Assembly (NCBI GenBank): GCA_021849505.1
Contig: JAJZSW010000015.1
Span: 1-41,906 of the forward strand
DNA: 41,906 nucleotides
Reading direction: 5' to 3'
From: Pseudomonadota bacterium
GTDB lineage: Bacteria > Pseudomonadota > Gammaproteobacteria > Burkholderiales > Rhodocyclaceae
The notes under the pieces are model-generated. The model was given only the letters and a program-made list of their open reading frames with translations. It did no database searches and was not told the origin of the DNA. Shown one piece after another: positions 6,971 to 29,058 of the stretch (positions are counted from its first letter, which is position 1; each line of letters opens with the position of its first letter). The position numbers and the translations under genes were made by a program.

Positions 6971-6997
6971 ATGCCGTCCCGTCAGCGCCGACTTTCA
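6971..6997 (-). repeat. Dispersed 27-bp repeat, copy 1 (at Bax-inhibitor gene stop)
   Basis: On the minus strand this copy reads TGAAAGTCGGCGCTGACGGG and then ACGGCAT. It begins directly after the TGA stop (7000-6998) of the Bax-inhibitor-1 family gene. It differs from the consensus (copy 4, at 28554-28580) at two positions. Confidence 0.8.
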
Positions 6998-7687
6998 TCA
7001 GTCGCGCTGTCCGGTGAAGGCCAGCAGCAGATGCACGAGGCTGACGAAGATGTTGTAGATGCTCAGATACACCGACAGCGTCGCCGTGACGTAATTGTCT
7101 TCGCCGCCCTGCACGATGCGGTTGATGTCGTAGAGGATGTAGGCGGAGAAGATCGCGACGGCCAGCGCCGAGATCGCCAGCGACACGGCGGGAACCTGGA
7201 AGAAGGCGTTGGCGAGTGCCGCGACCAGGATCAGGATCACGCCGGCGAACAGGAACTTGCCGAGGCCCGAGAAATCGCGCTTGGTCGTCGAGGCGATGCC
7301 GGCCAGCACGAAGAAGATCGCGCCCGTGCCGCCGGCGGCCATGGCGATGATGCTGCCGCCGTTGGAAAAGCCCAGCGCCACCTGCAGGATGCGCGACAGC
7401 ATCAGGCCCATGAAGAAGGTGAAGGCGAGCAGCAGGACGACGCCCATGCCGCTGTTCTTGGTCCTCTCGATGCCCCACATGAAGCCCCAGGCGACACCGA
7501 GGAACAGCAGGAAGGCCATCACCGGGCTGCCGGCGAAGAAGGAGAACTGCATCTGGATGCCGAGCAGGGCGCCGAGTACGGTCGGGACCATCGACAGCGC
7601 CAGCAGGGCATAGGTATTACGCAGCACGCGGTTCTGGCGGACTGCGTATTCGGCGGTACTCTGTTGGGCAATTTGGAACGGTTGCAT
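6998..7687 (-). CDS. Bax inhibitor-1 (YbhL/YccA) family membrane protein
   Basis: Seven-helix integral inner-membrane protein of the BI-1/UPF0005 family, 229 residues, almost wholly hydrophobic after residue 25. The start was set at MQPFQIAQQS (ATG 7687) because an AAAGGGAA ribosome-binding site lies just upstream and the N-terminus matches family members; the frame itself opens further upstream. Bacterial members include YccA, an FtsH modulator, and calcium-leak channels such as BsYetJ; which applies here is unknown. A sigma70-like promoter (7725-7753) and a terminator (6923-6953) bracket the gene, so it is probably monocistronic. Confidence 0.92.
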   Translation of the reverse strand: MQPFQIAQQSTAEYAVRQNRVLRNTYALLALSMVPTVLGALLGIQMQFSFFAGSPVMAFLLFLGVAWGFMWGIERTKNSGMGVVLLLAFTFFMGLMLSRILQVALGFSNGGSIIAMAAGGTGAIFFVLAGIASTTKRDFSGLGKFLFAGVILILVAALANAFFQVPAVSLAISALAVAIFSAYILYDINRIVQGGEDNYVTATLSVYLSIYNIFVSLVHLLLAFTGQRD

Positions 7688-7724
7688 GGACGATTCCCTT
7701 TCTGTTGTGGAACAAGCAGAACTA

Positions 7725-7753
7725 AGACTATCGGAAGCCCGTGAAAGTTTCAA
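7725..7753 (-). promoter_or_regulatory. Sigma70-like promoter of the Bax-inhibitor-1 family gene
   Basis: The minus strand shows TTGAAA (7753-7748), a 17-bp spacer and TAGTCT (7730-7725), about 38 bp upstream of the start codon. The -35 and spacing are good; the -10 is moderate. Confidence 0.45.
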
Positions 7754-7820
7754 GCTCTCAGTGCCTTGAAAATACGGGTGAATTCGCTGAATTCAAGCCT
7801 GGCTATCCCGGGGCGGCCAG

Positions 7821-9641
<1,821 letters not shown>

Positions 9642-9724
9642 CGTGGGTGGCGCGGAAAGCGCGGTCAAGAGAAGGGCGCGCATTCTAGCAGAGCACCATG
9701 CCCGAATTCATGAAGGAGATCAGA

Positions 9725-10480
9725 ATGTTGGCAATCATTGGCGGGAGCGGGCTGACACAGTTGGCGAGCCTGGAAGTGGCGCGGCGCGAGGTCGTCCGCA
9801 CGCCCTACGGCGAACCTTCCGGGACGCTGGCGTTCGGGCGCATCGGCGCGCAGGAGGTGGTCTTCCTCGCCCGCCACGGCCATGGCCACACGATTCCGCC
9901 GCATCGCGTCAATTACCGTGCGAACCTCTGGGCGCTGGTGAAGGCGGCCGGTGCCGAGGGCATCATCTCGGTCGCCTCGGTCGGCGGCATCCGGGATGAT
10001 CTCGGGCCAGGCGCGCTGGTGGTGCCGCACCAGATCATCGACTACACCTGGGGCCGGATGCACAGTTTTTTCGACGGCGGCGATGCGCCGGTGGTGCATG
10101 TCGACTTCACCGAACCCTACGACCGCGCCTTGCGCGAACGCCTGCTCTGTGCCGCCGCTGCAGCGGGCCTCAAGACCTCCGGCGCTGCCGTGTATGCCGC
10201 GACGCAGGGGCCGCGACTGGAGTCGGCGGCCGAGATCGAGCGGCTGGCGCGCGACGGCGCCGACATCGTCGGCATGACTGGCATGCCCGAAGCGGCGCTG
10301 GCGCGCGAGCTGGAAATACCCTATGCGGCGATCTGCGCGGTGGCCAACTGGGCGGCCGGGCGGGGCGATTCGGCGAGTACGATACATTTCGACCGTCTCG
10401 AGGCCGTGTTGCAGGAAACGCTCGGCCAGGTGCGCCGCGTGATCGAGCAACTGTGCGCAACCAGAGTTGCCGCGCCATGA
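9725..10480 (+). CDS. Probable S-methyl-5'-thioinosine phosphorylase
   Basis: MTAP/PNP-family phosphorylase that cleaves 5'-methylthio-nucleosides with phosphate in the methionine salvage branch. It has 251 residues from the ATG at 9725, chosen because AAGGAG (9713-9718) lies 6 bp before it. Motifs are IIGGSGL, ARHGHGH, NYRAN, MTGMPEA and NWAAGRGD. The asparagine in NWAAG stands where adenine-specific MTAPs carry an aspartate (TDYD-type), which favours a 6-oxopurine such as methylthioinosine, as in the Pseudomonas aeruginosa enzyme. That is inference from the motif; methylthioadenosine cannot be excluded. It converges on glnD, and the intervening space is filled by a dispersed repeat. Confidence 0.85.
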   Translation: MLAIIGGSGLTQLASLEVARREVVRTPYGEPSGTLAFGRIGAQEVVFLARHGHGHTIPPHRVNYRANLWALVKAAGAEGIISVASVGGIRDDLGPGALVVPHQIIDYTWGRMHSFFDGGDAPVVHVDFTEPYDRALRERLLCAAAAAGLKTSGAAVYAATQGPRLESAAEIERLARDGADIVGMTGMPEAALARELEIPYAAICAVANWAAGRGDSASTIHFDRLEAVLQETLGQVRRVIEQLCATRVAAP

Positions 10481-10507
10481 GTGCCGTCTTGCCAGCGCCG
10501 CTTTTCA
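10481..10507 (-). repeat. Dispersed 27-bp repeat, copy 2 (spacer between phosphorylase and glnD stops)
   Basis: The minus strand reads TGAAAAGCGGCGCTGG, then CAAGACGGCAC. The first TGA is the glnD stop codon, and the copy ends one base after the TGA of the convergent phosphorylase gene. The whole 24-bp spacer is therefore this repeat. It shows a few differences from consensus. Confidence 0.75.
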
Positions 10508-13096
10508 CTGAATCCGCAAGGTATCCAGTAGTTCCTGTTCGAGTTGCACCAGCGTGGCAGTCTTGCCCAGCTCCGCGCCGGTGATGAGAAAGGTGTCTTC
10601 GACCCGTTCGCCCAGCGTCATGATCTTCGCGCTGGAGAGGGAAATGCCATGCCTGGCCAGCACCAGTGCAATGGCATAGAGCAGGCCGGCGCGGTCGGCA
10701 GCGGTGAGCGACAGCAGGAAGTTCTTGCCGCCCTCGTCAACACGGACGGAGACTTCCGGGGTGAGCGGCACGTGCTTCACTTGGCGCGATAGCCGGCCTT
10801 TCGGGGGCGGCGCGAGCGGCGGCAGCCGCTTCAGGTTGTCGGCCAGTTCGTGCTCGATCAGACTGATCATGTCGCGGTAGGGGAGTTGGTTCTCCGGGTC
10901 GAGCAGGACAAAGCTGTCGAGTGCGTAACCGTGCCGGCAAGTGTGGATGCGGGCGTCAACGATGGAGTAGCCGAGGCGGGCGAAGAAGCCGCAGATGCGC
11001 GCGAACAGCGCCGGCTGATCCTTGACGTAGATCATCACCTGCAGGCCGGCGCCGACCGGGTTCAGGCGGGCGCGCACGACCGGTTCGGGGCTGTCCGGGC
11101 GGTAGTAGAGCGTCTGCGTGTGCCAGGCGATTTCCTCGCTGTCGTGGCGCATGAAATAGGCGGTGTCGAGCTGATCCCATAAATCGGTTTCGACGCCCGG
11201 CCGCAGGCCGCGCAGGCGCAGCTTGCCGCGTGCTTCCTCCTGGCGCTCCTCGATGCCGCCCAAAACACTGGTGGGGCTGGTGGTTTCCCCCGTCAGCAGG
11301 CGGCGCGTCATGCGATAGAGGTCCTCGAGCAGCTTGGCCTTCCAGAGGTTCCAGACCTTCGGGCTGGTGCCGCGGATGTCGCACATCGTCAGCAGGTAGA
11401 GTCCGGTCAGGCGTTCCTCGGTGCGCACGATGTCCGCAAAACGGCGGATCACCTCGGGGTCGGTCAGGTCGCGCTTCTGCGCGTAGGTCGACATCGTCAG
11501 GTGATGTTCGACCAGGAAGACGATCAGGTCGGTGTCGTGCCTGTCGATGCCGTGGGCGCGGCAGAAACGGCGCGCGTCGCTCATGCCCAGTTGCGAGTGG
11601 TCGCCGCCGCGCCCCTTGGCAATGTCGTGGAACAGCGCGGCGACATAGAGCCGCCAGCGCTCGGGGAAGGCCGCCATCAGGCGCGAGCAGTACGGGTATT
11701 CGTGGGCGAATTCGGAAAGCGACAGCCGGCGCAGGTTGCGCACCACCTGCAGGATGTGCTGGTCCACGGTGTAGACATGGAACAGGTCGTGCTGCATGCG
11801 CCCGACGATGCGGCCGAAGGCGGGCAGGTAGGCGCCGAGGATGTCGAACTGGTTCATGCGCCGCAGTTGGTGCGTGAGGCCGCGCTTCGCCTTGAACAGG
11901 GCGAGGAAGTTGGCACGGTTGGCCGGATCGCGCCGGAAGCCGGCGTCGATGCGGTCGCGCGCGTGCCAGAGCGCGCGCAGGTTGCGCGGGGTCAGGCCCT
12001 TCAGATCCGGCCGCTGGGAGAGCAGCAGGAAGCTTTCGAGGATGGCTGCCGGTTTGCGCTCGTAGAGGTCGTCGTCACGAATGTCGATCAACTCGTGGAC
12101 CAGCTGGAAGTTGTCGTCGATGACGATTGGCGCAGCGGCAGGATGGCGTTCGATGCGCGCTGCGAGCTCGATCAGGATCAGGGTGTTCAGCTGCGTGACC
12201 TGCTTGGCGTTGCGGTAGTAGCGCTGCATCAGCACTTCAGAGGTGCGGCGATGGGCGGTCGCGGCGATGCCAAGCTCCTTGGCCAGTGCTTCCTGGTGAT
12301 CGAACAGCAGGCGGTCTTCGCGCCGGTTCGTCAGGTAGTGCAGGGCGATACGCACGCGGCGGACGAAATTTTCGGTGCGTGTCAGCTGCTGCGCTTCCGT
12401 GGGCGAGATGAAACCGAACTCGGCAAGTTTGCGCCAGCCATCGGCCAGCGTCGCGGCGCGCCCGACCCAGAGAATGATCTGCAGGTCGCGCAGGCCGCCG
12501 GGATTTTCCTTGCAGTTCGGTTCTAGGTTGTAGGGCGTGTCGTTGTACTTCGCGTAGCGCTCTTCCTGCTCGAGCCGCTTGGCCTTGAGGAAGGCCGCCG
12601 GATCGAGCGCTTGCTGGAACTCGGCATGGAAGCGCGCGAACAGTGCACGGCTGCCGCAAAGAAAGCGCGCTTCCAGGAGGGCGGTCTGGATCGTGATGTC
12701 GCCGGCGGCCTCGGTCAGGCATTGTTCGACGGTGCGCACGCTGTGGCCGATATCGAGGCCGATGTCCCAGAGCATGCCGACCAGTTTTTCCAGGGCGTCC
12801 GCGTAAGTTTCATTCCCGGCATCCGGCAGCAGGATCAACAGATCGACATCCGAAGCCGGGTAGAGTTCGCCGCGGCCATAGCCGCCCACGGCGACCAGGG
12901 CCAGTTGCCGGTCCATCGCCGCGGTCTGCCACAGATGGGACAGGACCCGGTCGACCAGACTGGCGGTGCCGCGCAACAGGGCGGCCGGATTGCCGCTGGC
13001 GAGATATTTTTCCTTGAGCGCCTGGCGCCCGGTCAGCAGGGTTTCACGGCAGTGCGGAATCAGGTCGGGGCCGGGCGGCGGGCAGGCGGCATCCAC
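10505..13096 (-). CDS. glnD: Bifunctional PII uridylyltransferase/uridylyl-removing enzyme GlnD
   Basis: Nitrogen-status sensor that uridylylates PII proteins (GlnB/GlnK) at low glutamine and deuridylylates them at high glutamine. The 863-residue order is canonical: nucleotidyltransferase domain with GGYGRGELYPASDVDLL (71-87, metal aspartates D83/D85), a linker, an HD hydrolase domain (ALFHDIAKG and surrounding His/Asp), and two C-terminal ACT domains that bind glutamine. Translation starts at a GTG (13096) 16 bp after the map stop, consistent with a map-glnD operon. Its stop codon is part of a dispersed repeat. Confidence 0.97.
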   Translation of the reverse strand: MDAACPPPGPDLIPHCRETLLTGRQALKEKYLASGNPAALLRGTASLVDRVLSHLWQTAAMDRQLALVAVGGYGRGELYPASDVDLLILLPDAGNETYADALEKLVGMLWDIGLDIGHSVRTVEQCLTEAAGDITIQTALLEARFLCGSRALFARFHAEFQQALDPAAFLKAKRLEQEERYAKYNDTPYNLEPNCKENPGGLRDLQIILWVGRAATLADGWRKLAEFGFISPTEAQQLTRTENFVRRVRIALHYLTNRREDRLLFDHQEALAKELGIAATAHRRTSEVLMQRYYRNAKQVTQLNTLILIELAARIERHPAAAPIVIDDNFQLVHELIDIRDDDLYERKPAAILESFLLLSQRPDLKGLTPRNLRALWHARDRIDAGFRRDPANRANFLALFKAKRGLTHQLRRMNQFDILGAYLPAFGRIVGRMQHDLFHVYTVDQHILQVVRNLRRLSLSEFAHEYPYCSRLMAAFPERWRLYVAALFHDIAKGRGGDHSQLGMSDARRFCRAHGIDRHDTDLIVFLVEHHLTMSTYAQKRDLTDPEVIRRFADIVRTEERLTGLYLLTMCDIRGTSPKVWNLWKAKLLEDLYRMTRRLLTGETTSPTSVLGGIEERQEEARGKLRLRGLRPGVETDLWDQLDTAYFMRHDSEEIAWHTQTLYYRPDSPEPVVRARLNPVGAGLQVMIYVKDQPALFARICGFFARLGYSIVDARIHTCRHGYALDSFVLLDPENQLPYRDMISLIEHELADNLKRLPPLAPPPKGRLSRQVKHVPLTPEVSVRVDEGGKNFLLSLTAADRAGLLYAIALVLARHGISLSSAKIMTLGERVEDTFLITGAELGKTATLVQLEQELLDTLRIQ

Positions 13097-13112
13097 GCTG
13101 GCGGGCTTCAGG

Positions 13113-13916
13113 CTACTTGAACGGATTGGGCGGCGCTCCGGCGGAGAGAGTCAAAACCTCGACGCCGGATGCGGTGACGCAGACCGTATGCTCCCACTGC
13201 GCGGACAGGCTGCGATCCTTGGTGACGATGGTCCAGCCGTCCGGGAGTTCGGAAACGGCGGCCTTGCCCGCGTTGATCATCGGCTCGATGGTGAAGACCA
13301 TGCCCGGCTCGAGCCGGATGCCGTCGCCGCGGCGGCCATAGTGCAGCACCTGGGGTTCCTCGTGGAATTTTCTGCCGATGCCGTGGCCGCAGAATTCGCG
13401 CACGACGGAAAAGCCGTTCGTCTCGGCATGGCGCTGGATCGCGGCACCGATGTCGCCCAGGCTGGCTCCCGGCCGCACGGCATTGATGCCCAGCCAGAGG
13501 CACTCATGCGTGATCCGGATCAGCCGGTTGGCGAGGATGGAACCTGCCGTCGTGCCGCCGGTGACGAACATGCGGCTGGTGTCACCGTGCCAGCCATCCT
13601 TGATGGTGGTGATGTCGAGATTGACGATGTCGCCCTTTTTCAGCGGGCGGTCGTTGGGTACGCCATGGCAGACCTGATGGTTGACCGAGGCGCAGATCGA
13701 CTTCGGATAGGGGGCATAACCCGGCGGGGCGTAATTGAGCGGGGCGGGAATGCAGCCCTGCACCTTGACCATGTAATCGTGGCAGAGCCGGTCAAGTTCC
13801 TCGGTCGTGATCCCGGGCTTGACGAAAGGTTCGATATAGTCGAGCACCTCTCCCGCCAAGCGGCCGGCGATGCGCATGTTTTCTACTTCTTCCGGGGTCT
13901 TGATCGTGACGCTCAT
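13113..13916 (-). CDS. map: Type I methionine aminopeptidase
   Basis: Removes the initiator methionine from nascent proteins. The 267-residue pita-bread fold contains the five metal ligands D101, D112, H177, E210 and E241, and the substrate-binding histidine in VCHG (H84). There is no N-terminal zinc finger or extension, consistent with type Ia. Start ATG 13916. It is divergent from rpsB, the usual betaproteobacterial arrangement, and glnD follows on the same strand. Confidence 0.97.
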   Translation of the reverse strand: MSVTIKTPEEVENMRIAGRLAGEVLDYIEPFVKPGITTEELDRLCHDYMVKVQGCIPAPLNYAPPGYAPYPKSICASVNHQVCHGVPNDRPLKKGDIVNLDITTIKDGWHGDTSRMFVTGGTTAGSILANRLIRITHECLWLGINAVRPGASLGDIGAAIQRHAETNGFSVVREFCGHGIGRKFHEEPQVLHYGRRGDGIRLEPGMVFTIEPMINAGKAAVSELPDGWTIVTKDRSLSAQWEHTVCVTASGVEVLTLSAGAPPNPFK

Positions 13917-13990
13917 GCTCTATGGGGCTTGAATTGGGGCCTTCGATTGTAACCCGCCATGGCCGAGGAGCAGGACAGGACAGGAGAGCC

Positions 13991-14020
13991 TTGCGGTTGG
14001 GCGCAAAATTCATTTATAAT
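13991..14020 (+). promoter_or_regulatory. Sigma70 promoter of the rpsB-tsf transcript
   Basis: TTGCGG (13991-13996), an 18-bp spacer and a perfect TATAAT (14015-14020). The predicted start near 14027 leaves about a 100-nt leader before rpsB. Confidence 0.75.
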
Positions 14021-14026
14021 CCGCTG

Positions 14027-14129
14027 CTTGCCTTGTGATGCAGGGCAAAATTCACACACCCGGCGCCGAGTGGGTGCCCTGTAGCGGGGAACCGGCCGGG
14101 TGGCGGACCAACCCATATCGGAGATATCG
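14027..14129 (+). promoter_or_regulatory. Structured rpsB leader, candidate S2 autoregulatory element
   Basis: The predicted 5' leader can fold. CAGGGC (14041-14046) pairs with GCCCTG (14076-14081), and inside it ACCC (14058-14061) pairs with GGGT (14072-14075). A GC-rich CCGGCCGG palindrome follows before the ribosome-binding site GGAG (14120-14123). In gammaproteobacteria S2 represses rpsB-tsf through its leader, so a similar role is plausible. Homology to those leaders was not tested. Confidence 0.35.
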
Positions 14130-17139: not shown

Positions 17140-17937
17140 ATGTTCGCCAGCGCCACCCACAGCATTCCCGAGCAGCGCAGTGTGCCGCGCCATCTCGCCA
17201 TCATCATGGATGGCAACGGGCGCTGGGCGAAGCAGCGCTTCCTGCCGCGCGTGGCGGGCCACAAGCAGGGCGTCGAAACGGTCCGCCAGGTCGTCAAGGC
17301 CTGCATCGAGCGTGGCATCGAGTACCTGACGCTGTTCGCCTTCAGCTCAGAGAACTGGCGCCGGCCGCCGGAAGAGGTCAGTTTCCTGATGAACCTCTTC
17401 GTCACCGCACTCGAGCGCGAGGTCGGCCGCCTGCACAGCAACGGCGTGCGCCTGCGCGTCGTCGGCGATCTGGCCGCCTTCGAGCCGCGCCTGATCGACC
17501 TTATTCGCCGCGGCGAAAACCTCACGGCGGAAAACAAGAAGCTCACCCTGACCGTGGCCGCCAACTACGGCGGCCGCTGGGATCTGATGCAGGCCTTCAA
17601 CGGACTCGCGCTGGCCTATCCCGAAAAGGCGGGTAACTACACCGAGGCCGACCTCGAGCCCTTCCTGTCGATGAGTTACGCGCCCGAGCCCGACCTGTTC
17701 ATCCGCACCGGCGGCGAACAGCGCATCAGCAACTTCCTGCTCTGGCAGCTGGCCTACTGCGAGCTGTACTTCACGCAAAAGTTCTGGCCCGATTTCGACG
17801 AAGCCATGCTGGAGGAGGCGATCGACAGTTTCCGCATGCGCGAGCGCCGCTTCGGGCGCACCAGCGAGCAACTGACGGCCGGTCCGGGTGCCGTCCGGCC
17901 AGCGCCGACTTTTGCGGGTTCGAGCGGCAATGCTTAA
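17140..17937 (+). CDS. uppS: Undecaprenyl diphosphate synthase (C-terminal tail from a repeat)
   Basis: cis-Prenyltransferase that makes the C55 carrier lipid for peptidoglycan and O-antigen synthesis. Motifs are [11 protein letters not shown] (catalytic Asp), [18 protein letters not shown] and the C-terminal [15 protein letters not shown]. Ribosome-binding site GGAGGG (17128-17133). At 265 residues it is slightly long. The last 20 or so residues are a low-complexity tail in which residues 250-258 (GAVRPAPTF) are encoded by a copy of the dispersed repeat. Its 3' end overlaps the cdsA start by 8 bp. Confidence 0.96.
17888..17914 (-). repeat. Dispersed 27-bp repeat, copy 3 (in-frame in uppS)
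   Basis: On the plus strand the copy reads GTGCCGTCCGGCCAGCGCCG, then ACTTTTG; that is the complement of the consensus orientation. It has three mismatches to copy 4. It encodes GAVRPAPTF, residues 250-258 of UppS, close to the C-terminus. Confidence 0.75.
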
Positions 17938-18709: not shown

Positions 18710-19974
18710 TGAAGAGGCTGACTGTCCTTGGCGCGACCGGATCGATTGGCGTCAGCACGCTCGACGTGGTGGCGCGCCATCCCGACCGTTTCGAGGTCGT
18801 GGCCCTGACCGGCAACAGCCGCGTCGATGCGCTCTATGAGCAATGCCTGCGCCATCGTCCGCGCTATGCCGTGGTTGGTCGGGAACAGGATGTCGCCGGG
18901 CTGGCCGAGCGCCTGTGCGCCGCAGGCCTGCAAACCGAGGTCATGGCCGGGCCGCAAGCCCTGGCATTCGTCGCCGCGCTGCCCGAGGTCGATGCCGTGA
19001 TGGCGGCGATCGTCGGCGCGGCGGGCCTGCAGCCGACGCTCGCCGCCGTGCGTGCGGGCAAGCAGATCCTGCTGGCCAACAAGGAAGTGCTGGTGATGGC
19101 CGGCGCGCTGTTCATGGCCGAGCTGCAGGCGCACGACGCGACGCTGCTGCCGATCGACAGCGAGCACAACGCGGTGTTCCAGTCGCTGCCCGCCGATTAC
19201 GCGGGCGCGCCGGCGCGCGCGGGTGTCAGTCGTATCCTGCTGACTGCCTCCGGCGGGCCGTTCCGTGCAGTGCCTCTGGAACAGCTGAAAACCGTCACGC
19301 CGGACGAAGCCTGCGCGCATCCGAACTGGTCGATGGGCCGCAAGATCTCGGTCGATTCGGCGACCATGATGAACAAGGGTCTCGAAGTCATCGAGGCCCA
19401 CTGGCTGTTCAACGTCGCGCCCGACCAGATCGAGGTGGTCGTGCATCCCCAGAGCGTGATCCATTCGCTGGTGCAATACGTCGATGGCTCGGTCGTCGCC
19501 GAGCTGGGCAATCCGGACATGCGCACGCCAATCGCCCATGCGCTGGCCTGGCCGGAGCGCATCGCGGCGGGCGTCGCGCCGCTCGACCTGCCGGCGCTTG
19601 CCCGGCTGGATTTCGAGAAGCCCGATTTCGAGCGCTTCCCTTGCCTCGCGCTGGCCTACCGTGCGCTGCGCGCCGGCGGCAACGCGGCCGCCGTGCTGAA
19701 TGCCGCCAACGAGGTGGCCGTGGCGGCATTCCTCGCCGGCCGCCTGCCCTTCCTCGGCATCGCCGGCCTGATCGCCGCGACGCTGGATGCCGTGCCGGTC
19801 TCGGCGGTGCCCGACCTGGAAGCGATCCTGGCCGCGGATGAGGAGTCGCGCGCGGTGGCGACTGAACTTCTGGGGCGTTGGCAGCCTCAAGAAACACGCA
19901 GGGCCGCCCCAAGTGTTTCTTGGCCCCTTGAGGGGAGATCGCCGCGCAGCGGCGATTTCGGGGTGGGCTCGTGA
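18709..19974 (+). CDS. dxr: 1-deoxy-D-xylulose 5-phosphate reductoisomerase (extended C-terminus)
   Basis: NADPH-dependent second enzyme of the MEP isoprenoid pathway. [14 protein letters not shown] binds [17 protein letters not shown] carries the metal and substrate ligands, and ASGGPFR plus [13 protein letters not shown] complete the site. ATG 18709 overlaps the cdsA stop; a GTG one codon earlier is less likely. At 421 residues it is about 20 longer than typical. The excess (from about residue 392) is encoded by a hairpin-rich repeat at 19885-19956, not by family-conserved sequence. The stop overlaps the GTG start of rseP. Confidence 0.96.
19885..19956. repeat. Hairpin-rich repeat element at the 3' end of dxr
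   Basis: Three inverted repeats are packed together. CAAGAAACAC (19888-19897) pairs with GTGTTTCTTG (19913-19922). CCCC-TTGA-GGGG occupies 19924-19935. ATCGCCGC (19938-19945) pairs with GCGGCGAT (19949-19956) over a 3-nt loop. CCTCAAG (19885-19891) can alternatively pair with CTTGAGG (19927-19933). The arrangement resembles REP-like intergenic repeats of betaproteobacteria, but here it lies inside the reading frame. No second copy is visible in the window. Confidence 0.75.
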
Positions 19975-21344
19975 ATTTCGAGGGAGCCTTCTGGGTGGTC
20001 GGTGCGTTCGTGCTGGCCCTCGGCGTGTTGATAACGGTGCACGAACTCGGTCACTACCTGGCCGCGCGCCTCTGCAACGTCAAGATCCTGCGCTTCTCGG
20101 TCGGCTTCGGCAAGCCGCTCTGGCTCAGGCGTTACGGGCCGGACCAGACCGAATGGGCGCTGGCGGCCTTCCCGCTCGGCGGCTACGTCAAGATGCTCGA
20201 CGAGCATGAGGGGGCGGTTGCGGAGCATGAACTGCAGCGCGCTTTCAACCGGCAGAGCCTCGGCAAGCGCAGTTTCATCGTGGTGGCCGGGCCGCTGGCG
20301 AATCTGCTGCTGGCAGTCGTGCTCTACTGGTTCCTGTTCCTGTCGGGCGTCGAGGAGCCGCGCCCGATCATCGGTGCCCCGCCGGCCGGCACGCTGGCGG
20401 CGGAAGCCAAAGTCGGCGCCGGCGTGACGGCACGCAGCGTGTCCGGCACCCCGGTGGCGACCTGGACGGAGCTGCGTTGGGAAATCCTCCGTCATATGCT
20501 GGACCGGGACGCGGTCGTTCTCGAAACCATCGATACGCGGGGCAACATCGAATTCCATCGCATCGACCTTGCGCGGCTCGATAGCGCGGTGCTGGATGGC
20601 GATGTGATGCAGGCGCTCGGCCTGCGCCTGCACCGTCCCGATTTGCCGGGGGTGATCGGCAGGGTCCAGGCCGACTCGCCGGCGGCGCGCGCCGGCGTGC
20701 TGGCGGGCGACAAGGTCGTCGCCATCGACGATCGGCCGGTGGCCAACTGGCATGACGTGGCCACGGCAATCCGCGCCGCCGGGACACGCGAGCTGCTGCT
20801 CGAAGTCGAGCGCGGCACTGAAATCCTTCAGATTCCGGTCATGCCGGAACTGGTCGATGAGGGCGGCAAGCCGGTCGCGCGTATCGGCATCGCCGTGCGT
20901 GATGACCCGGATTGGCGGCGCGACATCATGACGACGGTGAGCTATGGCCCAGGGGAATCCTTGCAAAAGGCGCTGGCCCAGACCTGGGATACCTCGATAC
21001 TCAGCCTGCGCATGATCGGCCGGATGATCGTCGGCGAACTGTCGGTGAAGAACATCTCCGGGCCGGTCACGATCGCCGACTACGCCGGCCAGTCGGCCCG
21101 CATGGGCGGCGATCATTACCTGCGTTTCCTCGCCCTCATCAGCATCAGTCTCGGCGTGCTGAATCTGCTGCCCATCCCGGTTCTGGATGGCGGGCACCTG
21201 ATGTATCATCTCGCCGAACTGATCAAGGGTGGACCGCTCTCGGAACGCGCGATGGAAATTGGCCAGCAAATCGGCCTGACCTTGCTTGCATTGCTGATGG
21301 GACTGGCACTCTACAATGACATCCTCCGCTTGGTTTCCAACTGA
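19971..21344 (+). CDS. rseP: Site-2 protease RseP (regulator of sigma-E protease)
   Basis: Inner-membrane zinc metalloprotease that cuts anti-sigma factor RseA within the membrane, after DegS, and clears signal peptides. The 457-residue protein has HELGH (H24, E25, H28) in the first helix, two PDZ domains (about 115-200 and 205-290) and the C-terminal [13 protein letters not shown] ligand motif. It starts at GTG 19971, overlapping the dxr stop (GTGA). Residues around AKVGAGVTA are encoded by a sequence 23/25 identical to the dispersed repeat. The stop lies in a 12-bp tandem repeat before bamA. Confidence 0.96.
20409..20433 (+). repeat. Possible sixth copy of the dispersed repeat, inside rseP
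   Basis: AAAGTCGGCGCCGGCGTGAC followed by GGCAC matches the 25-bp core of copies 4 and 5 at 23 of 25 positions. It encodes AKVGAGVTA in the first PDZ domain. This segment is the same length as in ordinary RseP proteins, so it may be coincidence or gene conversion rather than insertion. Confidence 0.35.
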
Positions 21345-21371: not shown

Positions 21372-23660
21372 ATGAAATATTCTGTTCTGGCAGGCCTGGC
21401 AGCGGCGCTGATAGCATCGGGCGCGGCCGCCTTCGATCCCTTCGTGGTGCGCGACATCCGTGTCGAGGGCATCCAACGCACTGAGGCGGGTACCGTGTTC
21501 AGCTATCTGCCCGTCAAGGTGGGCGACACGCTTACCGATGACAAGGCCAGCCAGGCGATCAAGTCGCTGTTCGGCACCGGCTTCTTCAAGGACGTGCGCC
21601 TCGAGGTCGAAGGCAACGTACTCGTCGTGCTGATCGAGGAGCGGCCCGCCATCGCTTCGCTCGAATTCGTCGGCACCAAGGCCTTCGACAAGGAAAACCT
21701 GCGCAAGGGCCTGCGCGAGGTGGGCCTCGCCGAATCGCGCATCTTCGACCGCGCCCTGGTCGAACGCGCCGAACAGGAACTCAAGCGCCAGTATCTGTCC
21801 CAAGGCTATTACGCGGCGCAGGTCACGACGACGGTGACGCCGCTCGAGCGCAACCGCGTCGGCATCACCTTCGCGGTCGATGAGGGCGAGATCGCCAAGA
21901 TCCGCCAGATAAACATCGTCGGTGCCAGGAACTTCAAGGAGAAAGATCTCCTCAATCTGTTCAACCTGCGCACACCGGGCTGGCTGACCTGGTACACCAA
22001 GAACGACCAGTATTCGAAGCAAAAACTCTCGGCCGACCTGGAGACCCTGCGCTCCTACTACCTCGACCGCGGCTTTGTCGAATTCAACATCGAGTCGACG
22101 CAGGTGTCGATCTCGACGGACAAGCAGGACATCTACATCACGATCAACATCAGCGAGGGCGATCAATACACCGTTTCCGGCGTGAAGCTGGCCGGCGAAC
22201 TGCTGTTGGCGGAGGAGGAACTGCTGAAGCTGGTGACGATCAAGCCCGGCAGCCTGTTCTCGCGCGAGCAGGTCACCGCGACGACCAAGGCGATTGCTGA
22301 CCGGCTCGGCAATGAGGGCTATGCCTTCGCCAACGTCAATGCCGCACCCGAACTGGACAAGGAAAAGAAACAGGTCGCCTTCACGCTGTTCGTCGATCCG
22401 GGCCGGCGTGTTTACGTGCGCCGCATCCAGGTGCAGGGCAATACGCGCTCGCGCGACGAAGTAATCCGCCGCGAAATGCGCCAGATGGAAGCGGCCTGGT
22501 ACGACGGCGAAAAGATCAACAAGTCGCGCACGCGCGTCGACCGCCTGGGCTACTTCGACGAGGTGACGGTCGAAACGCCGGCGGTGCCCGGCACGACGGA
22601 TCAGGTCGACCTCAACGTCAATGTCAAGGAAAAGCCGACCGGCAACCTGATGATCGGCGCGGGCCTGTCAAGTTCGGAAGGCCTGGTCTTCTCCGGGTCG
22701 GTCAACCAGCAGAACCTGTTCGGCAGCGGCAAGCATGTCGGCGTCGGCTTCAACACCAGCAAGATCAACAAGCTGTACTCGTTCTCGTATACCGACCCGT
22801 ATCACACGGTGGATGGCATAAGTCGCGGTTTCGACCTCTACATGCGGGATACGGACACGTCGCAGCTGAACACCATCGCTACCTATGCGACGAAGTCGCT
22901 CGGCGGCGGCGTGCGCTACGGCATTCCGATCGGCGAGGACGATACGGTCAATTTCGGCCTGGCCTACGACAACACCCAGATCAAGACCACCACATATACG
23001 CCACAGCGATTCAAGGATTTCCTGACCCAATACGGCGACAAGTTCTCCGGCCTGATCGGCACGCTTGGCTGGTCAAAGGAAACGCTGGATAGCCGCATCT
23101 ACCCGATGAAGGGTTATGTCGCGAAAGTCGGCGGGGAAGTCGGGCTTGGCGGAACATTGCGCTATTACCGGACCAACCTGCAATACCAGCGTTATTTCCC
23201 TGTCGGTCGCGACACCACGCTGATGCTCAACGGCGAATTCGGCCTGGCGGATGGTCTGGGCGGCCGCCCCCTGCCTTTCTACAAGTACTACTATGCCGGC
23301 GGTGTCGGCTCGGTGCGGGGCTACAAGGCTGGCTCCCTGGGGCCGATCGCGGACGATGCGACCAATACCGAAGAGCGCCTGGGTGGCGATCGGCGCCTGA
23401 TCGCCAACGCCGAATTCCTGTTCCCCATGCCGGGCGGCGGGCTGGACAAATCCTTCCGGCTGGGCGCATTCGTCGATGCCGGCTGGGTCTGGGGCGTCGG
23501 CCAAAAGATGAATGTCGGCGACATGCGTTATAGCGCGGGTCTCTCGCTGGCCTGGACCTCCCCGCTCGGCCCGCTGAAGTTCAGCCTGGCCCAGCCGCTC
23601 AACAAGAAGGACACCGACAAGACTCAGCGTCTGCAGTTCCAGATGGGAACGATATTCTGA
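21372..23660 (+). CDS. bamA: Outer membrane protein assembly factor BamA
   Basis: Essential Omp85-family barrel that inserts outer-membrane proteins. The 762-residue precursor has a signal peptide (1 to about 20, ending GAAA), five POTRA domains (about 21-420) and a C-terminal 16-strand barrel. The conserved loop-6 motif is VRGY (in GSVRGYKAG) and the chain ends in phenylalanine (MGTIF). No clear Shine-Dalgarno is present before the ATG at 21372, where a tandem repeat sits. It is followed by skp and the lpx genes, the usual envelope cluster, and partners with bamC at 2637. Confidence 0.97.
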   Translation: MKYSVLAGLAAALIASGAAAFDPFVVRDIRVEGIQRTEAGTVFSYLPVKVGDTLTDDKASQAIKSLFGTGFFKDVRLEVEGNVLVVLIEERPAIASLEFVGTKAFDKENLRKGLREVGLAESRIFDRALVERAEQELKRQYLSQGYYAAQVTTTVTPLERNRVGITFAVDEGEIAKIRQINIVGARNFKEKDLLNLFNLRTPGWLTWYTKNDQYSKQKLSADLETLRSYYLDRGFVEFNIESTQVSISTDKQDIYITINISEGDQYTVSGVKLAGELLLAEEELLKLVTIKPGSLFSREQVTATTKAIADRLGNEGYAFANVNAAPELDKEKKQVAFTLFVDPGRRVYVRRIQVQGNTRSRDEVIRREMRQMEAAWYDGEKINKSRTRVDRLGYFDEVTVETPAVPGTTDQVDLNVNVKEKPTGNLMIGAGLSSSEGLVFSGSVNQQNLFGSGKHVGVGFNTSKINKLYSFSYTDPYHTVDGISRGFDLYMRDTDTSQLNTIATYATKSLGGGVRYGIPIGEDDTVNFGLAYDNTQIKTTTYTPQRFKDFLTQYGDKFSGLIGTLGWSKETLDSRIYPMKGYVAKVGGEVGLGGTLRYYRTNLQYQRYFPVGRDTTLMLNGEFGLADGLGGRPLPFYKYYYAGGVGSVRGYKAGSLGPIADDATNTEERLGGDRRLIANAEFLFPMPGGGLDKSFRLGAFVDAGWVWGVGQKMNVGDMRYSAGLSLAWTSPLGPLKFSLAQPLNKKDTDKTQRLQFQMGTIF

Positions 23661-23673
23661 TTCAGGAGAGAGA

Positions 23674-24183
23674 ATGAAAACTTTAGCGAAAACCCTTTTG
23701 CCCGTTCTGCTCATGGCCTTCGTTACCCCGGCCCTGGCGGAATTCAAGATCGGCTTCGTCAACGGCCAGCGCGTGGTGAATGACTCCCCGCAGGCCAAGC
23801 GCGCGAAGCAGAAGCTTGAGAAGGAATTCGAGAAGCGCGACCAGGAACTGCAGCAGCTTTCCAAGCGCTTGCAGTCGATGCAGGAAAACCTCGAAAAGAA
23901 TGGCGTGACGATGGCGGAGAGCGAGCGGCGCAACAAGGAGCGCGAGTTCAACGAACTCAACCGCGACTTCCAACGCAAGCAGCGGGAGTTCCGCGAAGAC
24001 CTGAACCTGCGCCAGAACGAGGAAATGGCTGGCATCTTCGAGCGCGCCAACAAGGTCATCAAGCAGATCGCCGAAGCCGAGAAGTTCGACCTGATCGTTC
24101 AGGAAGCGGTCTATTTCAGCCCGCGCATCGACGTCACCGACAAGGTGATCAAGGCCCTGAGCAGCGAAGCGCCTGGCAAATAA
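23674..24183 (+). CDS. skp: Periplasmic chaperone Skp/OmpH
   Basis: Trimeric holdase that carries unfolded outer-membrane proteins across the periplasm to BAM. The 169-residue precursor has a signal peptide (1-22, cleavage after PALA), then FKIGFVNGQRVVNDSP, and a long charged alpha-helical hairpin (about 45-145) that would form the tentacles. A strong AGGAGAG ribosome-binding site precedes the ATG. It follows bamA by 13 bp and precedes lpxD, the conserved order. Confidence 0.95.
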   Translation: MKTLAKTLLPVLLMAFVTPALAEFKIGFVNGQRVVNDSPQAKRAKQKLEKEFEKRDQELQQLSKRLQSMQENLEKNGVTMAESERRNKEREFNELNRDFQRKQREFREDLNLRQNEEMAGIFERANKVIKQIAEAEKFDLIVQEAVYFSPRIDVTDKVIKALSSEAPGK

Positions 24184-24198
24184 CCCGTTCCCTGAGTC

Positions 24199-25185
24199 GT
24201 GGCCCGCACCCTGGCTGACATCGTCGCGCACTTCGGCGGCGAGTTGAAGGGTGACGGGGCGCGCGTCGTCACGGGCCTGGCCACGCTGGAAGCGGCGACC
24301 CCCGGCCAATTGAGCTTCCTGGCGAATCCGAAGTACCGCAGCCAGCTGGCCGCCACACGGGCTGGCGCGGTCATCCTGGCGGCCGAGACCCTGGCGGCCT
24401 GTCCCGGCGACGCGATCGTCACGCCCCAGCCCTATCTGTATTTCGCGCGCGTATCCCAGTGGCTGGCGGCAGGGCAGGCGCCCGCGCCGGGCATCCATCC
24501 GTCCGCCGTCGTCGAAGCGCCGCTGCCGCCGTCGGTCAGCGTCGGCGCGCATTGCTGGATCGGCGCCGACGTCGACATCGGGGAAAACAGCGTGCTCTAT
24601 CCAGGCGTCAGGATTTATCCCGGCTGCCGCATCGGCCGGCGGGCAATCGTCCATTCCGGCGCCGTGATCGGCGCCGACGGCTTCGGCTTCGCGCGCGAAG
24701 CGACGGGCGAGTGGGTCAAGATCGCCCAGACCGGCCGCGTCGTCATCGGCGATGACGTCGAGATCGGCGCCAACACCACGATCGATCGCGGCGCGCTCGA
24801 GGACACGGTGATCGAGGACGGCGTCAAGCTGGACAACCAGATCCAGGTCGGCCATAACGTACGCATCGGTGCGCATACCGCGATCGCCGGCTGCGTGGGC
24901 ATCGCCGGCAGCGCCCGGATCGGCGCGCGCTGCACCATCGGCGGTGCCGCGGTCATTCTCGGCCACCTGGAGCTTGCCGATGACGTCAATGTCTCGGCCG
25001 GGACGCTGGTGGGAAAGTCGATCGCCCGGCCCGGCAACTACACCGGCACCGTGCCCTTCATGGCGCATGACGAGTGGCAAAAGAACTTCGCCCGCCTGCG
25101 CCATCTCGATGCGCAGGCCGATAAAATACGCGCCCTCGAAAAGCGCCTGGCTCATTTGGAACAATTGCTGGAGAAAAAGTCATGA
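24199..25185 (+). CDS. lpxD: UDP-3-O-acylglucosamine N-acyltransferase
   Basis: Third enzyme of lipid A synthesis; adds the N-linked 3-hydroxyacyl chain to UDP-3-O-acyl-glucosamine. The 328-residue protein has an N-terminal uridine-binding domain (about 1-100), a left-handed beta-helix of hexapeptide repeats (about 100-290) with the catalytic-histidine segment QVGHNVRIG, and a C-terminal helical tail. It starts at GTG 24199, giving [16 protein letters not shown]. The 4-bp ATGA overlap with fabZ (25182-25185) suggests coupled translation. Confidence 0.97.
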
Positions 25186-25658
25186 CCGTCCCGACGCCCG
25201 CACCTGCCGTTACCTCGATGGATATCCACCAGATCCTCGAATACCTGCCGCATCGCTACCCGATCCTGCTGGTGGATCGCGTGCTCGACGTCGTGCCGGG
25301 CGAGCGCATCACCGCGCTCAAGAACGTCAGCATGAACGAACCTTTCTTCCCGGGCCACTATCCCCACCACCCGGTGATGCCGGGCGTGCTGATCGTCGAG
25401 GCGATGGCGCAGACGGCGGCGATCCTGTCCTTCAAGACCATGGGCGGCAAGCCGGACGACAAGTCCGTTTACTACTTCGTCGGCATCGACGGCGCGCGCT
25501 TCAAGCGGCCCGTCAGTCCCGGCGACCAGTTGATCATGGAAGTCTCGATCACGGCCAGCAAGCGCGGCATGTGGAAGTTCGCCGGGCAGGCGAAGGTCGA
25601 TGGCCAGGTCGCCTGCGAAGCCGAGCTGATCTGCACCGTGCGCAAACTGGAAGACTGA
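25182..25658 (+). CDS. fabZ: 3-hydroxyacyl-[ACP] dehydratase FabZ
   Basis: Dehydrates beta-hydroxyacyl-ACP in fatty-acid elongation and competes with LpxA/LpxD for 3-hydroxyacyl-ACP, hence its place between them. The 158-residue hot-dog fold shows the active-site region [20 protein letters not shown], with the catalytic histidine of GHYP and the glutamate of VEA. The ATG at 25182 overlaps the lpxD stop; an internal ATG at 25218 ([10 protein letters not shown]) matches the most common family N-terminus and would give 146 residues, so the first 12 residues are uncertain. Confidence 0.96.
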
Positions 25659-25659
25659 G

Positions 25660-26448
25660 ATGTCTTCCAATATTCACCCGACCGCGCTGATCGACCCGGG
25701 CGCGCGGCTCGGCGCGAACGTCAGCGTCGGCGCCTATTCGATCATCGGCCCCGATGTCGAGATCGGCGACAATACTTGGGTCGGCCCGCATGTCGTGATC
25801 AACGGCCCGACCCGCATCGGCAACGACAACCGCATCTTCCAGTTCTCCTCGCTCGGCGAGATGCCGCAGGACAAGAAGTATGCCGGCGAACCGACCCGCC
25901 TCGAGATCGGCGACCGCAACACGATTCGCGAGTTCTGTACCTTCAACCGCGGCACGGCCCAGGACGCCGGCGTGACCCGCCTCGGCAACGACAACTGGAT
26001 CATGGCCTATGTGCATCTCGCGCACGACTGCCAGATTGGCGACCACACCATCTTCGCCAACAATGCGCAGCTCGCGGGTCACGTGCATGTCGGCGACTGG
26101 GCGATATTGGGTGGGTTTACGGTGGTGCACCAGTTCGTGCGCATCGGCGCGCACTGCATCACCGGCATGGGCTCGATCCTGTTCCAGGACGTGCCGCCCT
26201 TCGTCACTGCCGCCGGCAATCCGGTCGCGCCGCACGGCATCAACAGCGAAGGCCTGAAGCGCCGCGGTTATGCCCCGGAAACCATCGCCGGCCTGCGGCG
26301 TGCCTACAAGACGCTCTACCGCAGCGGGCTGAAGCTCGAGGAAGCGGCCGTGGCGATCGCCGCCGAGGCGCAGACCCAGGGAGACCTGGCGCCGCTGACT
26401 GTGCTGGCGGACTTTCTCACAGCGCCCGGGCGCGGCATCATTCGATAA
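25660..26448 (+). CDS. lpxA: UDP-N-acetylglucosamine acyltransferase
   Basis: First enzyme of lipid A synthesis; transfers 3-hydroxyacyl from ACP to the 3-OH of UDP-GlcNAc. The 262-residue protein has a left-handed beta-helix of hexapeptides (about 1-190), catalytic H122 in HLAHDC, and a C-terminal helical domain with [12 protein letters not shown]. It starts 1 bp after the fabZ stop, and lpxB begins immediately after its TAA. Confidence 0.97.
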
Positions 26449-27672
26449 ATGACGCGCATTGCCTTGGTGGCGGGCGAGGCCTCGGGCGACCTGCTGGCAG
26501 CGCACCTGATCGAGGCGCTCAAGCGCCGCTTGCCGGACGCCGAGTTCTTCGGCATCGGCGGCCCGAAGATGCAGCGCACCGGTTTCGATGCCTGGTGGCC
26601 CGCCGAACGGCTGGCGGTGTGCGGCTATGCCGAAGTGCTGCGCCATTACCGCGAAATCACGGGCATCCGGCGTGCCCTGCTGGCGCGGCTGCGCGACGAG
26701 AAGCCCGATGTGTTCATCGGCGTCGATGCGCCCGATTTCAACCTCTGGCTCGAAAGACGTCTCAAGCGGGCCGGCATCCCCACGGTACATTACGTCAGCC
26801 CGTCGGTCTGGGCCTGGCGCGGCGGTCGGATCAACAAGATCGCCCGCGCCTGCGACCGCCTGCTGGCGCTGTTTCCCTTCGAGCCGCCGCTCTACGAGAA
26901 AGCCGGCCTGCCGGTCGATTACGTCGGCCATCCGCTTGCCGACGTGCTGCCGCTCGAGTCCGGGCGCGAGGCGGCACGCGAACGCCTGGAACTCAACGGA
27001 CGCGGCCCGGTGATCGCGCTCTTGCCCGGCAGCCGCCAGTCGGAGGTCGGCATGATGGCCGAGCTGTTCATCCAGACGGCCCGGCTGTTGCGCGAACGCT
27101 TTCCGCAGGCGGTGTTCCTCGTGCCGCTGGTGTCGCGCGAAACGCGTACCCTCTTCGAGGAAGCGCTCTGGAAGCTCGGCCACCAGGACTGGCTGATGAT
27201 GGATGCTCCCGTGCGGTCCGGTTTCGAGATCACCCATGTCGAGCTCGATGCCGCAGTGAATCCTTCCGCGGGTTGTCTGAAGCTGCTGTTCGGTCATGCA
27301 CAGGATGCGCTGGCGGCCTGCGACGGGGCGCTCGTCGCCAGCGGTACCGCGACGCTCGAAGCGGCTCTGCTCAAGGCCCCGCACGTGATCACCTACCGCA
27401 TGTCGCCCTGGTCGTGGCGGCTCATGAAGCGCATGCGCTACCAGCCCTGGGTCGGCCTGCCGAACGTCCTGGCCGGCCGCTTCGTCGTGCCGGAATTCCT
27501 GCAGGACGAGGCGACGCCGGCGAACCTCGCGCAGGCGCTCGGCAACCTCGTCCTCGACGGCGAGGTGCGCCAGCGCCTGACCGGCTGCTTCACCGACATG
27601 CACCGGCAGCTGCGGCAGAACACCGCGGAAAAGGCGGCGGCGGCGATCCTGCCGCTGCTGCAGTCGGCATGA
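26449..27672 (+). CDS. lpxB: Lipid-A-disaccharide synthase
   Basis: GT19 glycosyltransferase, peripheral on the inner membrane, that joins UDP-2,3-diacylglucosamine to lipid X. The 407-residue protein begins [19 protein letters not shown] and contains [29 protein letters not shown] and [10 protein letters not shown], all characteristic. Start ATG 26449 directly follows the lpxA TAA. Its stop overlaps the rnhB start (ATGA, 27669-27672). Confidence 0.97.
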
Positions 27673-28226
27673 TCTGCGGCGTCGATGAAGCCGGCCGCGG
27701 CCCGCTCGCCGGGCCGGTCGTCGCGGCGGCGGTGATCCTCGACCCGGCGCGGCCGATCGTCGGGTTGGCCGATTCGAAAAAGCTCTCGGCACGGCGGCGC
27801 GAAATTCTGACCTTCGAGATTCGGCAAAAAGCGCTAGCCTGGAGCGTTGCAGAAGCCACCGTCGAGGAAATCGATGCGCTCAACATCCTGCAGGCGACCC
27901 TGCTGGCGATGCAACGCGCCGTGGCCGGCCTGGCGGTGATGCCTGTGGAAATTCTCATTGACGGCAATCGTTGCCCGCAGCTGGCTCTCCCGGCACGCGC
28001 CATCATCGGCGGCGACGCGACGGTGGCGGAAATCTCGGCCGCCTCGATCCTCGCCAAGACCGTGCGCGATGCCGGGATGCGGGTCATGGACGAGCGGTTT
28101 CCGCAGTACGGCTTCGCACGCCACATGGGCTACGGCACGGCGGCGCATCTCGCCGCGCTGCGCGTCCACGGGCCGTGCCCGGAGCATCGCCGCAGCTTCG
28201 CGCCGGTGCGCATTCTGCTGCCATGA
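27669..28226 (+). CDS. rnhB: Ribonuclease HII
   Basis: Endonuclease that nicks the RNA strand of RNA/DNA hybrids and removes misincorporated ribonucleotides. The 185-residue protein begins [18 protein letters not shown], with catalytic D6 and E7; the third acidic residue lies in LIDGNR and the next near SILAKTVRD. The C-terminal segment includes [11 protein letters not shown]. The ATG overlaps the lpxB stop by 4 bp, and its own stop overlaps the next start by 4 bp, so lpxB-rnhB-methyltransferase are translationally coupled. Confidence 0.96.
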
Positions 28227-29035
28227 AGACGATTACATCACGCGACAATCCGACACTGAAATCCCTGCGTGCCTTGCTGACTGATACGCGCAAGCAGCGT
28301 GCGAGTGGACAAGCAGTGCTCGAAGGGCCGCATCTGCTGGCGGCTGCGCTTGACCATCAAGTACGGCCCGACCTCATCGTGGTCTGCGAGGGGGCGTGCA
28401 CCAACCCCGAGGTGACGGGGCTGCTCGCACGTGCGGGCAAGGTCGAAACGCTCTGCCTGCCCGATCCGCTGTTCCGCAGCCTGAGCGAATTGGCTGCCCC
28501 GGTCGGTATCCTCGCCCGCATTGCCGTCCCCATCAACGCGGCGGTTCCGGCGGGTGCCGTCCCGCCAGCGCCGACTTTCATGCCAGATGGCGACTGCCTG
28601 CTGCTCGACGCGGTGCAGGATGCCGGCAACGTCGGCACCCTGCTGCGCACCGCCGCCGCCGCCGGCGTGCGGGACGTGCTGCTCGGCCCGGGTTGCGCGG
28701 GCGCCTGGTCGCCGCGTGTGCTGCGCGCCGCGCAGGGCGCACACTTCGGCCTGTGCATCCGCGAGCAGGCCGATCTGGCCGGCTTCCTGAAGCACTATTC
28801 CGGCAACCCGGTCGCCACCGTGGCGCGCGACGGCGCTTCCCTGTATGCGCTTGACCTGCGCCAGCCGGTCGCCTGGCTGTTCGGCAACGAAGGGGCCGGG
28901 CTCGCTCCCGAACTGGTCGCGCTGGCGAAACGGCGCTCGACGATTCCGCTCGCAGCGGGCAGCGAGTCGCTCAATGTCGCGGCCGCGGCGGCGGTCTGTC
29001 TGTTCGAAATGCGCCGGCAGCGTGAATTCCGGTAA
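28223..29035 (+). CDS. TrmH/SpoU-family RNA 2'-O-methyltransferase with repeat-derived linker
   Basis: SPOUT-class RNA methyltransferase, 270 residues. It has an N-terminal substrate-binding domain (about 1-95, starting with the typical [12 protein letters not shown]), a linker, then the SpoU domain: [18 protein letters not shown] (motif 1), [10 protein letters not shown] (motif 2) and [18 protein letters not shown] (motif 3). These knotted domains bind SAM. The linker contains GAVPPAPTF (residues 111-119), encoded by a perfect copy of the dispersed repeat, and a second, inverted copy starts at the stop codon. The RNA target (rRNA or tRNA) cannot be assigned. The start overlaps the rnhB stop by 4 bp. 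Confidence 0.93.
28554..28580 (-). repeat. Dispersed 27-bp repeat, copy 4 (in-frame in the RNA methyltransferase)
   Basis: Reference copy. The plus strand reads GTGCCGTCCCGCCAGCGCCG, then ACTTTCA. It encodes GAVPPAPTF in the linker between the two domains of the methyltransferase. It shares 25 identical bases, inverted, with copy 5 about 450 bp downstream. Confidence 0.85.
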
Positions 29036-29058
29036 AGTCGGCGCTGGCGGGACGGCAC
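29032..29058 (+). repeat. Dispersed 27-bp repeat, copy 5 (at methyltransferase stop)
   Basis: Bases 29034-29058 (AAAGTCGGCGCTGGCGGGAC then GGCAC) are the exact reverse complement of 28554-28578. The methyltransferase TAA (29033-29035) lies within the first bases. The nfeD ribosome-binding site begins a few bases after the copy ends. Confidence 0.85.

Follow-up and report, generated by a model that had tools for sequence, protein, structure and literature searches.

A 25-bp motif dispersed in hundreds of copies through the genome of a member of the Rhodocyclaceae is probably a DNA uptake signal, similar in type to the DNA uptake sequences (DUS) of Neisseriaceae and the uptake signal sequences (USS) of Pasteurellaceae; we put the probability of this reading at roughly 0.7. 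The motif was noticed in a stretch of 41,906 nucleotides, hereafter the window, from contig JAJZSW010000015.1 of the assembly GCA_021849505.1 (positions 1 to 41,906, forward strand). The reading is based on the abundance of the motif, its spacing, strand distribution, reading frames and position at gene ends, its evolution in place and its division into dialects, since these are the published hallmarks of uptake signals.

Searches of the window revealed five copies with at most three mismatches to the 25-mer AAAGTCGGCGCTGGCGGGACGGCAC, and none was found in 100 dinucleotide shuffles of the same sequence. The genome to which the window belongs (G000; 2,749,208 bases in 161 contigs) contains 466 such copies, of which 59 are exact; the two strands have 247 and 219, respectively. 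This corresponds to about one copy per 5.9 kb, and the reversed pattern gave no match. The repeat described in the initial annotation of the window is therefore real. The copy that it had placed at 10481 was also found, albeit with four mismatches, and the copies at 28554 and 29034 are indeed identical over 25 bases.

A profile built from 75 copies with at most four mismatches, taken from 406 kb of the same genome, showed that the motif is bipartite, non-palindromic and sharp-edged: AAAGTCGGCGCTGGC-nnn-ACGGCAc. Conservation spans positions 0 to 24, with little in the flanks. Positions 4 to 10 (TCGGCGC), 12, 14 and 18 to 22 (ACGGC) are nearly fixed, and the loosest among positions 0 to 23 are 15 to 17, 3, 11 and 13; position 24 is also loose. 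As the copies were chosen by mismatch count, the logo is somewhat sharpened. In this 406-kb sample, the numbers of copies with zero to seven mismatches were 13, 13, 30, 14, 6, 8, 7 and 9, background setting in at eight mismatches (33 matches). Thus, 70 of 100 copies have zero to three mismatches, 14 have four or five, and 16 have six or seven. The copies therefore give the impression of active maintenance rather than decay; a wider tail of mismatches would be expected of an old repeat in decay. No conserved flank, terminal inverted repeat or palindrome was seen in the profile or in a fold test, in which a 33-base strand made of the 29034 copy and eight flanking bases folded no better than its shuffles (z = +0.94). 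The earlier remark that the repeat is not clearly palindromic holds.

The distribution of the motif was determined in 61 genomes, and reversed-pattern controls gave no match in any of them; most genomes in this study are drafts and were sampled. In the genus of G000, 18 of 19 genomes (G000 included) carry 53 to 564 copies, the remaining one, G006, having none. Among 18 genomes from other genera of the family, G019 and G026 contain 169 and 441 copies, respectively; six contain one to four copies, and ten contain none. Elsewhere in the order, G047 has four copies and the rest of the 24 genomes have none. Seventeen genomes were reached through named loci: 488 copies were found in L237 (uncultured Rhodocyclaceae bacterium Ja_bin-2460), 63 in L197 (a Rhodocyclales bacterium from groundwater; G063), one in L211 (a Thiobacillus) and none in the other 14. 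The L237 genome, which matches G014 in size and strand counts, is probably identical to it. The motif also emerged from word counts, its sub-words being the top-ranked enriched 12-mers in samples of G000 and G017 and figuring among the 12 words listed for G002 and G010. A 305-kb sample of G006 contained no strongly enriched 12-mer and no other over-represented word comparable to the motif. In a tree of Dxr from 30 genomes, from which eight motif-free or nearly motif-free genera of the family were left out, all abundant carriers fell within one clade of 23 (support 91/88). This clade also includes two motif-free genomes, G024, which stands next to the genus (96/87), and G006, whose branch is long and whose placement is uncertain. 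The simplest reading of this tree would be one gain and two losses, which one gene cannot settle.

The placement of the motif was analyzed for 261 copies in samples of four genomes (75 in G000, 62 in G002, 63 in G017 and 61 in G010). Gene classes came from a simple purpose-made caller, so that the small intergenic counts are approximate. Genes fill 84 to 87% of the DNA, and 170 copies (65%) lie within them, compared with about 220 expected. These intragenic copies comprise 97 in sense and 73 in antisense orientation, with unequal use of the frames: as read from the consensus, the KVGAGGTA frame accounts for 70 of the 97 sense copies and the AVPPAPT frame for 46 of the 73 antisense copies. Another 37 copies are found between 3 bp before and 10 bp after a stop codon, where about 1.7 would be expected; one copy lies just before a start codon, and 53 lie elsewhere. 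The preference for stop codons proposed from the window is a genuine excess, but it concerns only one copy in seven. It is true of three window copies, at the Bax-inhibitor, glnD and SpoU methyltransferase genes, all in gene sense, the other four window copies being intragenic, in sense orientation in rseP and in antisense orientation in uppS, in the linker of the SpoU methyltransferase and in the gene at 4470-5852. The single orientation relative to the gene that these three copies had suggested was not borne out in the four-genome samples, in which 18 after-stop copies are on the gene strand and 19 on the opposite strand. Of the proposed binding site tied to gene ends, one half is right: the motif has the appearance of a recognition site, but gene ends are seemingly just the places that tolerate it best.

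In all four genomes, the copies are spaced more evenly than random, with coefficients of variation of 0.56 to 0.64, compared with 0.83 to 0.88 in simulations (P = 0.001, 0.003, below 0.001 and 0.008; 1,000 simulations each). In three of them, there is also a significant shortage of copies lying less than 1 kb apart. No strand switch between replichores was found in samples of two single-chromosome genomes, G002 and G017. Two 20-kb samples of G017, one with a ribosomal-protein operon and one with a prophage, are devoid of copies, and so is a 16-kb sample of G000 (L057). An inverted arm is present upstream of 7 of 62 copies in G002, 7 of 63 in G017, 3 of 75 in G000 and none of 61 in G010; in DUS and USS, inverted repeats account for some 10% of copies. 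A composite hairpin, approximately CCCGCCGGGCGCCGACT - 10 bp - AGTCGGCGCTGGCGGG, was noted with a copy as its right arm in 6 of 62 cases in G002 and 7 of 63 in G017, for example at L063:6159 and L138:9869; such arrangements recall the paired DUS at terminators.

How the copies change between relatives was followed at orthologous sites, using 74 copies in a syntenic region of 13 genomes. The 888 comparisons yielded 473 alignments spanning the site, the other 415 not reaching across it. The motif is kept in 224 of the spanning alignments, with at most four mismatches in the other genome; 154 show diverged sequence with no more than three gapped bases, another 89 contain gaps that are larger but still small, and only 6 lack 12 or more bases of the motif. 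The 29034 site is a clear example of a position shared among relatives (Table 1). Over 314 gapless alignments, identity is 0.867 in the motif and 0.763 in the flanks, the motif being the better conserved part in 256. Motif-free G006 can be aligned at 26 of the sites, 10 of them gapless. At those 10, identity amounts to 0.568 for the motif, compared with 0.70 for the flanks; 10 to 15 of the 25 positions differ from the consensus, leaving no trace of the motif. As orthologous sites mostly change by substitution in place rather than by insertion, the suggestion of a mobile short repeat made in the initial annotation is unsupported.

The motif also varies from genome to genome in a concerted manner. 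The 5′ half AAAGTCGGCGCTGG, searched with at most one mismatch and thus constant by choice of pattern, is abundant in all genomes compared, with 529 matches in G005, 237 in G016, 590 in G019, 630 in G026 and 405 in G063 (reversed control, 3 to 11). The full motif is scarcer in these genomes, with 148, 53, 169, 441 and 63 matches, respectively; G000 differs, with 442 half and 466 full motifs. In G005 and G016 the shortfall arises because the 3′ half is altered in the matches listed. Of the 161 G005 matches, the first 50 listed include 46 with T at position 22, and 43 read ACGGTG; in G016, 25 of 28 matches carry G rather than A at position 18. The 3′ ends of G019 are mixed: 9 of the 22 places listed, from a total of 220, have T at position 17. 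Among sets preselected at no more than five mismatches to the G000 consensus, A occupies position 23 in G000 (31 of 34), G002 (17 of 18) and G017 (27 of 27), and G does so in G010 (39 of 42), the 3′ ends being mostly ACGGCA in the former three and ACGGCG in G010. Within each genome, many of the scattered copies have thus undergone the same shift, one half staying constant. In G034 (C162, C212, C220, C221 and others), 8 of the 14 matches belong to a variant half-motif, AAAGTCGACGCTGG, including two that form a close inverted pair; this is perhaps a further dialect outside the carrier clade.

The motif is not DUS or USS proper, as its consensus is, by inspection, different from theirs and longer. 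The properties analyzed here nevertheless agree with those published for uptake sequences. According to published accounts, these are evenly spaced, arise by point mutation rather than insertion, favor certain reading-frame orientations, have no general orientation bias and, in Pasteurellaceae, are biased toward gene termini (PMC1939737, PMC2346458). In Haemophilus influenzae, 65% of USS lie inside open reading frames (ORFs), although about 86% of the genome is coding; the figure for Neisseria gonorrhoeae is 35% in ORFs (PMC1939737, PMC2346458). The motif shares with USS the proportion of about 65% in ORFs, the terminus and frame biases, the even spacing, the absence of a general orientation bias and evolution by point mutation. 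It differs in sequence from USS, a Gammaproteobacterial signal with the 9-bp core AAGTGCGGT or ACAAGCGGT (PMC3630211, PMC12616744). Like the DUS of Neisseriaceae, it occurs in hundreds of copies or more on both strands, evolves in place, shows some inverted pairs and varies in genome-specific dialects, described for DUS in PMC3630211, of which one part stays fixed; the genome also encodes a pilin of the ComP_DUS family. Unlike DUS, it belongs to another family of bacteria and is bipartite and about 24 bp long, compared with about 9 to 12 nucleotides (PMC12616744). Another difference is that the ComP-type pilin is also found in motif-free relatives here.

We infer that the motif is read by a competence receptor, biases uptake and is maintained by drive. 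In this scheme, a receptor for DNA on the cell surface, part of the type IV pilus competence machine, would prefer fragments that carry the motif, and the fragments taken up would recombine into the chromosome, such that copies nearer to the preference of the receptor spread. Molecular drive of this kind could keep copies at hundreds of places where genes tolerate them. If the preference of the receptor shifted, the copies would drift together into a new dialect.

The genes for such a machine are widespread. Of 37 genomes, 36 have ComEC and 34 a ComP_DUS-type pilin; DprA was detected in 21 of 23. In G000, the pilin sits in a cluster of frames that we take to be pilin-like, together with a long, presumably PilY1-like frame (L044). 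These genes permit the uptake-signal reading but do not prove it, because they are also present in motif-free G006 and in most motif-free genera. As a discriminator they failed, since motif-free genomes have them and a few carriers are without a match.

Several observations weigh against an uptake signal. G006 has ComEC, DprA and a ComP_DUS-type pilin, and most motif-free genera also have ComEC and this pilin. Of the 23 genomes, two carriers yielded no match to DprA, namely G014 and G019, of which G019 is rated 99% complete; 19 have a ComEA-like domain, never over the cut-off, and four carriers are without one. The ComP_DUS-type pilin of G000 best matches general type IV pilins in the PDB, with no ComP among the 17 matches listed, a result that is in itself neutral. 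The motif is longer than DUS and than the core of USS, and its density in G000 is one copy per 5.9 kb or so. In G010, the shortage of copies less than 1 kb apart is not significant (P = 0.113), and strands are uneven in the G002 sample (23 versus 39), the minus strand being the commoner, as in the whole genome (137 minus versus 114). Contigs classed as viral also carry the motif, their further copies being sparse (62 in 1.13 Mb). Lastly, 95 of the 473 spanning alignments have more than three gapped bases. The 28554 site in particular lies in a variable, gapped linker in which relatives differ by stretches of 20 bp and more, and it is the best evidence against a history of pure substitution. 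At this site, window positions 28523-28578 of the minus strand form a 56-bp unit made of the motif and 31 bp ending in a second GGGGACGGC half-site. The unit recurs at about 80 to 96% identity in several relatives (e.g., G009, G011, G014 and G015), suggesting composite sites.

The main alternative is that the copies are sites for an intracellular DNA-binding protein involved in chromosome organisation, replication or repair, or global regulation, each selected in its own place; we consider this unlikely. A sharp bipartite motif with a tolerant 3-bp spacer, even spacing and positional conservation would all suit such sites, and Karlin, as cited in PMC1939737, viewed DUS and USS themselves as replication, repair or compaction sites. 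However, there is no replichore switch, copies occur after stops and in certain frames, where genes tolerate them, and G006, a member of the genus, is motif-free with no trace at aligned sites. A concerted change of dialect would also be hard to achieve if each site needed its own selection.

A very short mobile or selfish repeat inserting near gene ends is far less probable still, and is largely contradicted by the orthologous-site alignments. Repetitive extragenic palindromes (REP) with their associated RAYT transposases, and repeats of the miniature inverted-repeat transposable element (MITE) type, are likewise short, dispersed, numerous and often near gene ends. The hundreds of near-identical copies, the excess directly after stops, the indels around some sites and the 56-bp composite forms of some relatives would fit such an origin. 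Yet no palindrome, terminal inverted repeat or conserved flank was seen, most sites lack an insertion signature, many copies are orthologous across relatives with about 76% flank identity and differ mostly by substitution, and about two thirds are intragenic in preferred frames. A transcription terminator or RNA-level 3′-end signal is barely credible: the 37 copies just after a stop and the hairpin-capable inverted arms in G002 and G017 speak for it, but the single motif tested does not fold, the after-stop copies divide evenly by strand, most copies are intragenic, and the arm is present in only 3 of 75 copies in G000 and none of 61 in G010. Polar chromosome motifs such as Chi or the FtsK-orienting polar sequences (KOPS) have a strand bias that switches between replichores, and a motif of this kind was rejected as no switch occurs in the two genomes sampled; coincidence of protein coding was rejected as well, the motif being kept in antisense, between genes and in several frames.

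If the motif is an uptake signal, self-tagged uptake is not confined to Neisseriaceae and Pasteurellaceae, described in a 2025 article as the only families known with this trait (PMC12616744), and Rhodocyclaceae would be a third, unrelated case. Among the open-licence PubMed Central articles listed in our searches, no title or opening lines of an abstract report an uptake signal for Rhodocyclaceae, Rhodocyclales or Accumulibacter. We lean, by a small margin, toward a fuller history in which this third family evolved sequence-tagged uptake of self DNA independently, with an unusually long, two-part recognition motif (about 24 bp) in which the 3′ half changes dialect between species. The tag would have a single origin close to the base of a few Rhodocyclaceae genera and would have vanished without a trace from the fast-evolving G006. 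Mobile DNA of the same environments, including cassette-like arrays in viral-labelled contigs, would have acquired it beside its recombination sites. An uptake signal would also provide a new dialect series for testing receptor co-evolution and open transformation to study in bacteria known partly from assembled genomes; some of the Rhodocyclaceae carriers come from groundwater, judging by their record titles. The presence or absence of the tag might mark foreign DNA in carrier genomes.

The copies in the window are listed in Table 1. Pfam matches back the names of the genes concerned (Bax1-I, GlnD, SpoU methylase, prenyltransferase for uppS, peptidase M50 and PDZ for rseP, and NfeD-like). A gene called at 6511-7017 in the window by the simple gene caller is likely false and has no Pfam match.

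Table 1. Copies of the motif in the window, with their mismatches to the 25-mer, gene context and state at the same place in relatives
Position	Strand	Mismatches	Context	Same place in relatives
5017..5041	-	4 (weak copy)	Antisense in tRNA (uracil-5-)-methyltransferase-like gene 4470-5852	Present in 5 of the 7 relatives whose alignment spans the site (3-4 mismatches)
6971..6995	-	2	Starts two bases past TGA (6998-7000, -) of Bax-inhibitor family gene; gene sense	
10481..10505	-	4	Overlaps glnD TGA (10505-10507, -); gene sense	1-3 mismatches in G004, G002 and G017; not in G006
17888..17912	-	1	Antisense, 3′ end of uppS	
20409..20433	+	2	rseP, sense and in frame, reads AKVGAGVTA	At most 4 mismatches to consensus in 10 of 11 relatives with a spanning alignment
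28554..28578	-	0 (exact)	Antisense in linker preceding SpoU domain of RNA methyltransferase	
29034..29058	+	0 (exact)	Overlaps TAA (29033-29035, +) of SpoU methyltransferase gene; gene sense; just ahead of NfeD-like gene	Recognisable at shared position in 10 of 14 aligned relatives; diverged in G001, G004, G006 and G012

Viral-classed contigs from IMG/VR (at least 120 stretches, L276, L286, L292, L307 and L317 among them) showed a further association. Of the 174 copies listed there, 14 are followed by attC-like complementary pairs; in controls, such pairs were found at 51 of 3,480 random places and after none of 76 copies in a sample of G000. L292 contains five copies within 1.4 kb, each followed by an attC-like pair, and three of the four intervals measure 316 bp. 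In the viral-classed contigs, several unrelated reading frames share a terminal KVGAG..VQGDMLLPAN tail. At first sight the tail suggests one conserved phage gene, but the sequences preceding it vary, and some of the tails have attC-like pairs behind them.

Two other repeat families were noted. Samples of G002 (L059-L077) contain an AT-richer word, approximately CAGATTGTCCATTAG, about 10 times in 380 kb, far above expectation. Between dxr and rseP, window positions 19886-19970 hold a second, unrelated dispersed repeat of about 85 bp, which forms strong hairpins (z = -3.7) and is found in numerous copies throughout the genus. In G000, this repeat encodes approximately the final 27 to 30 residues of the dxr frame; the matches of other genus members end at residues 393 to 407.

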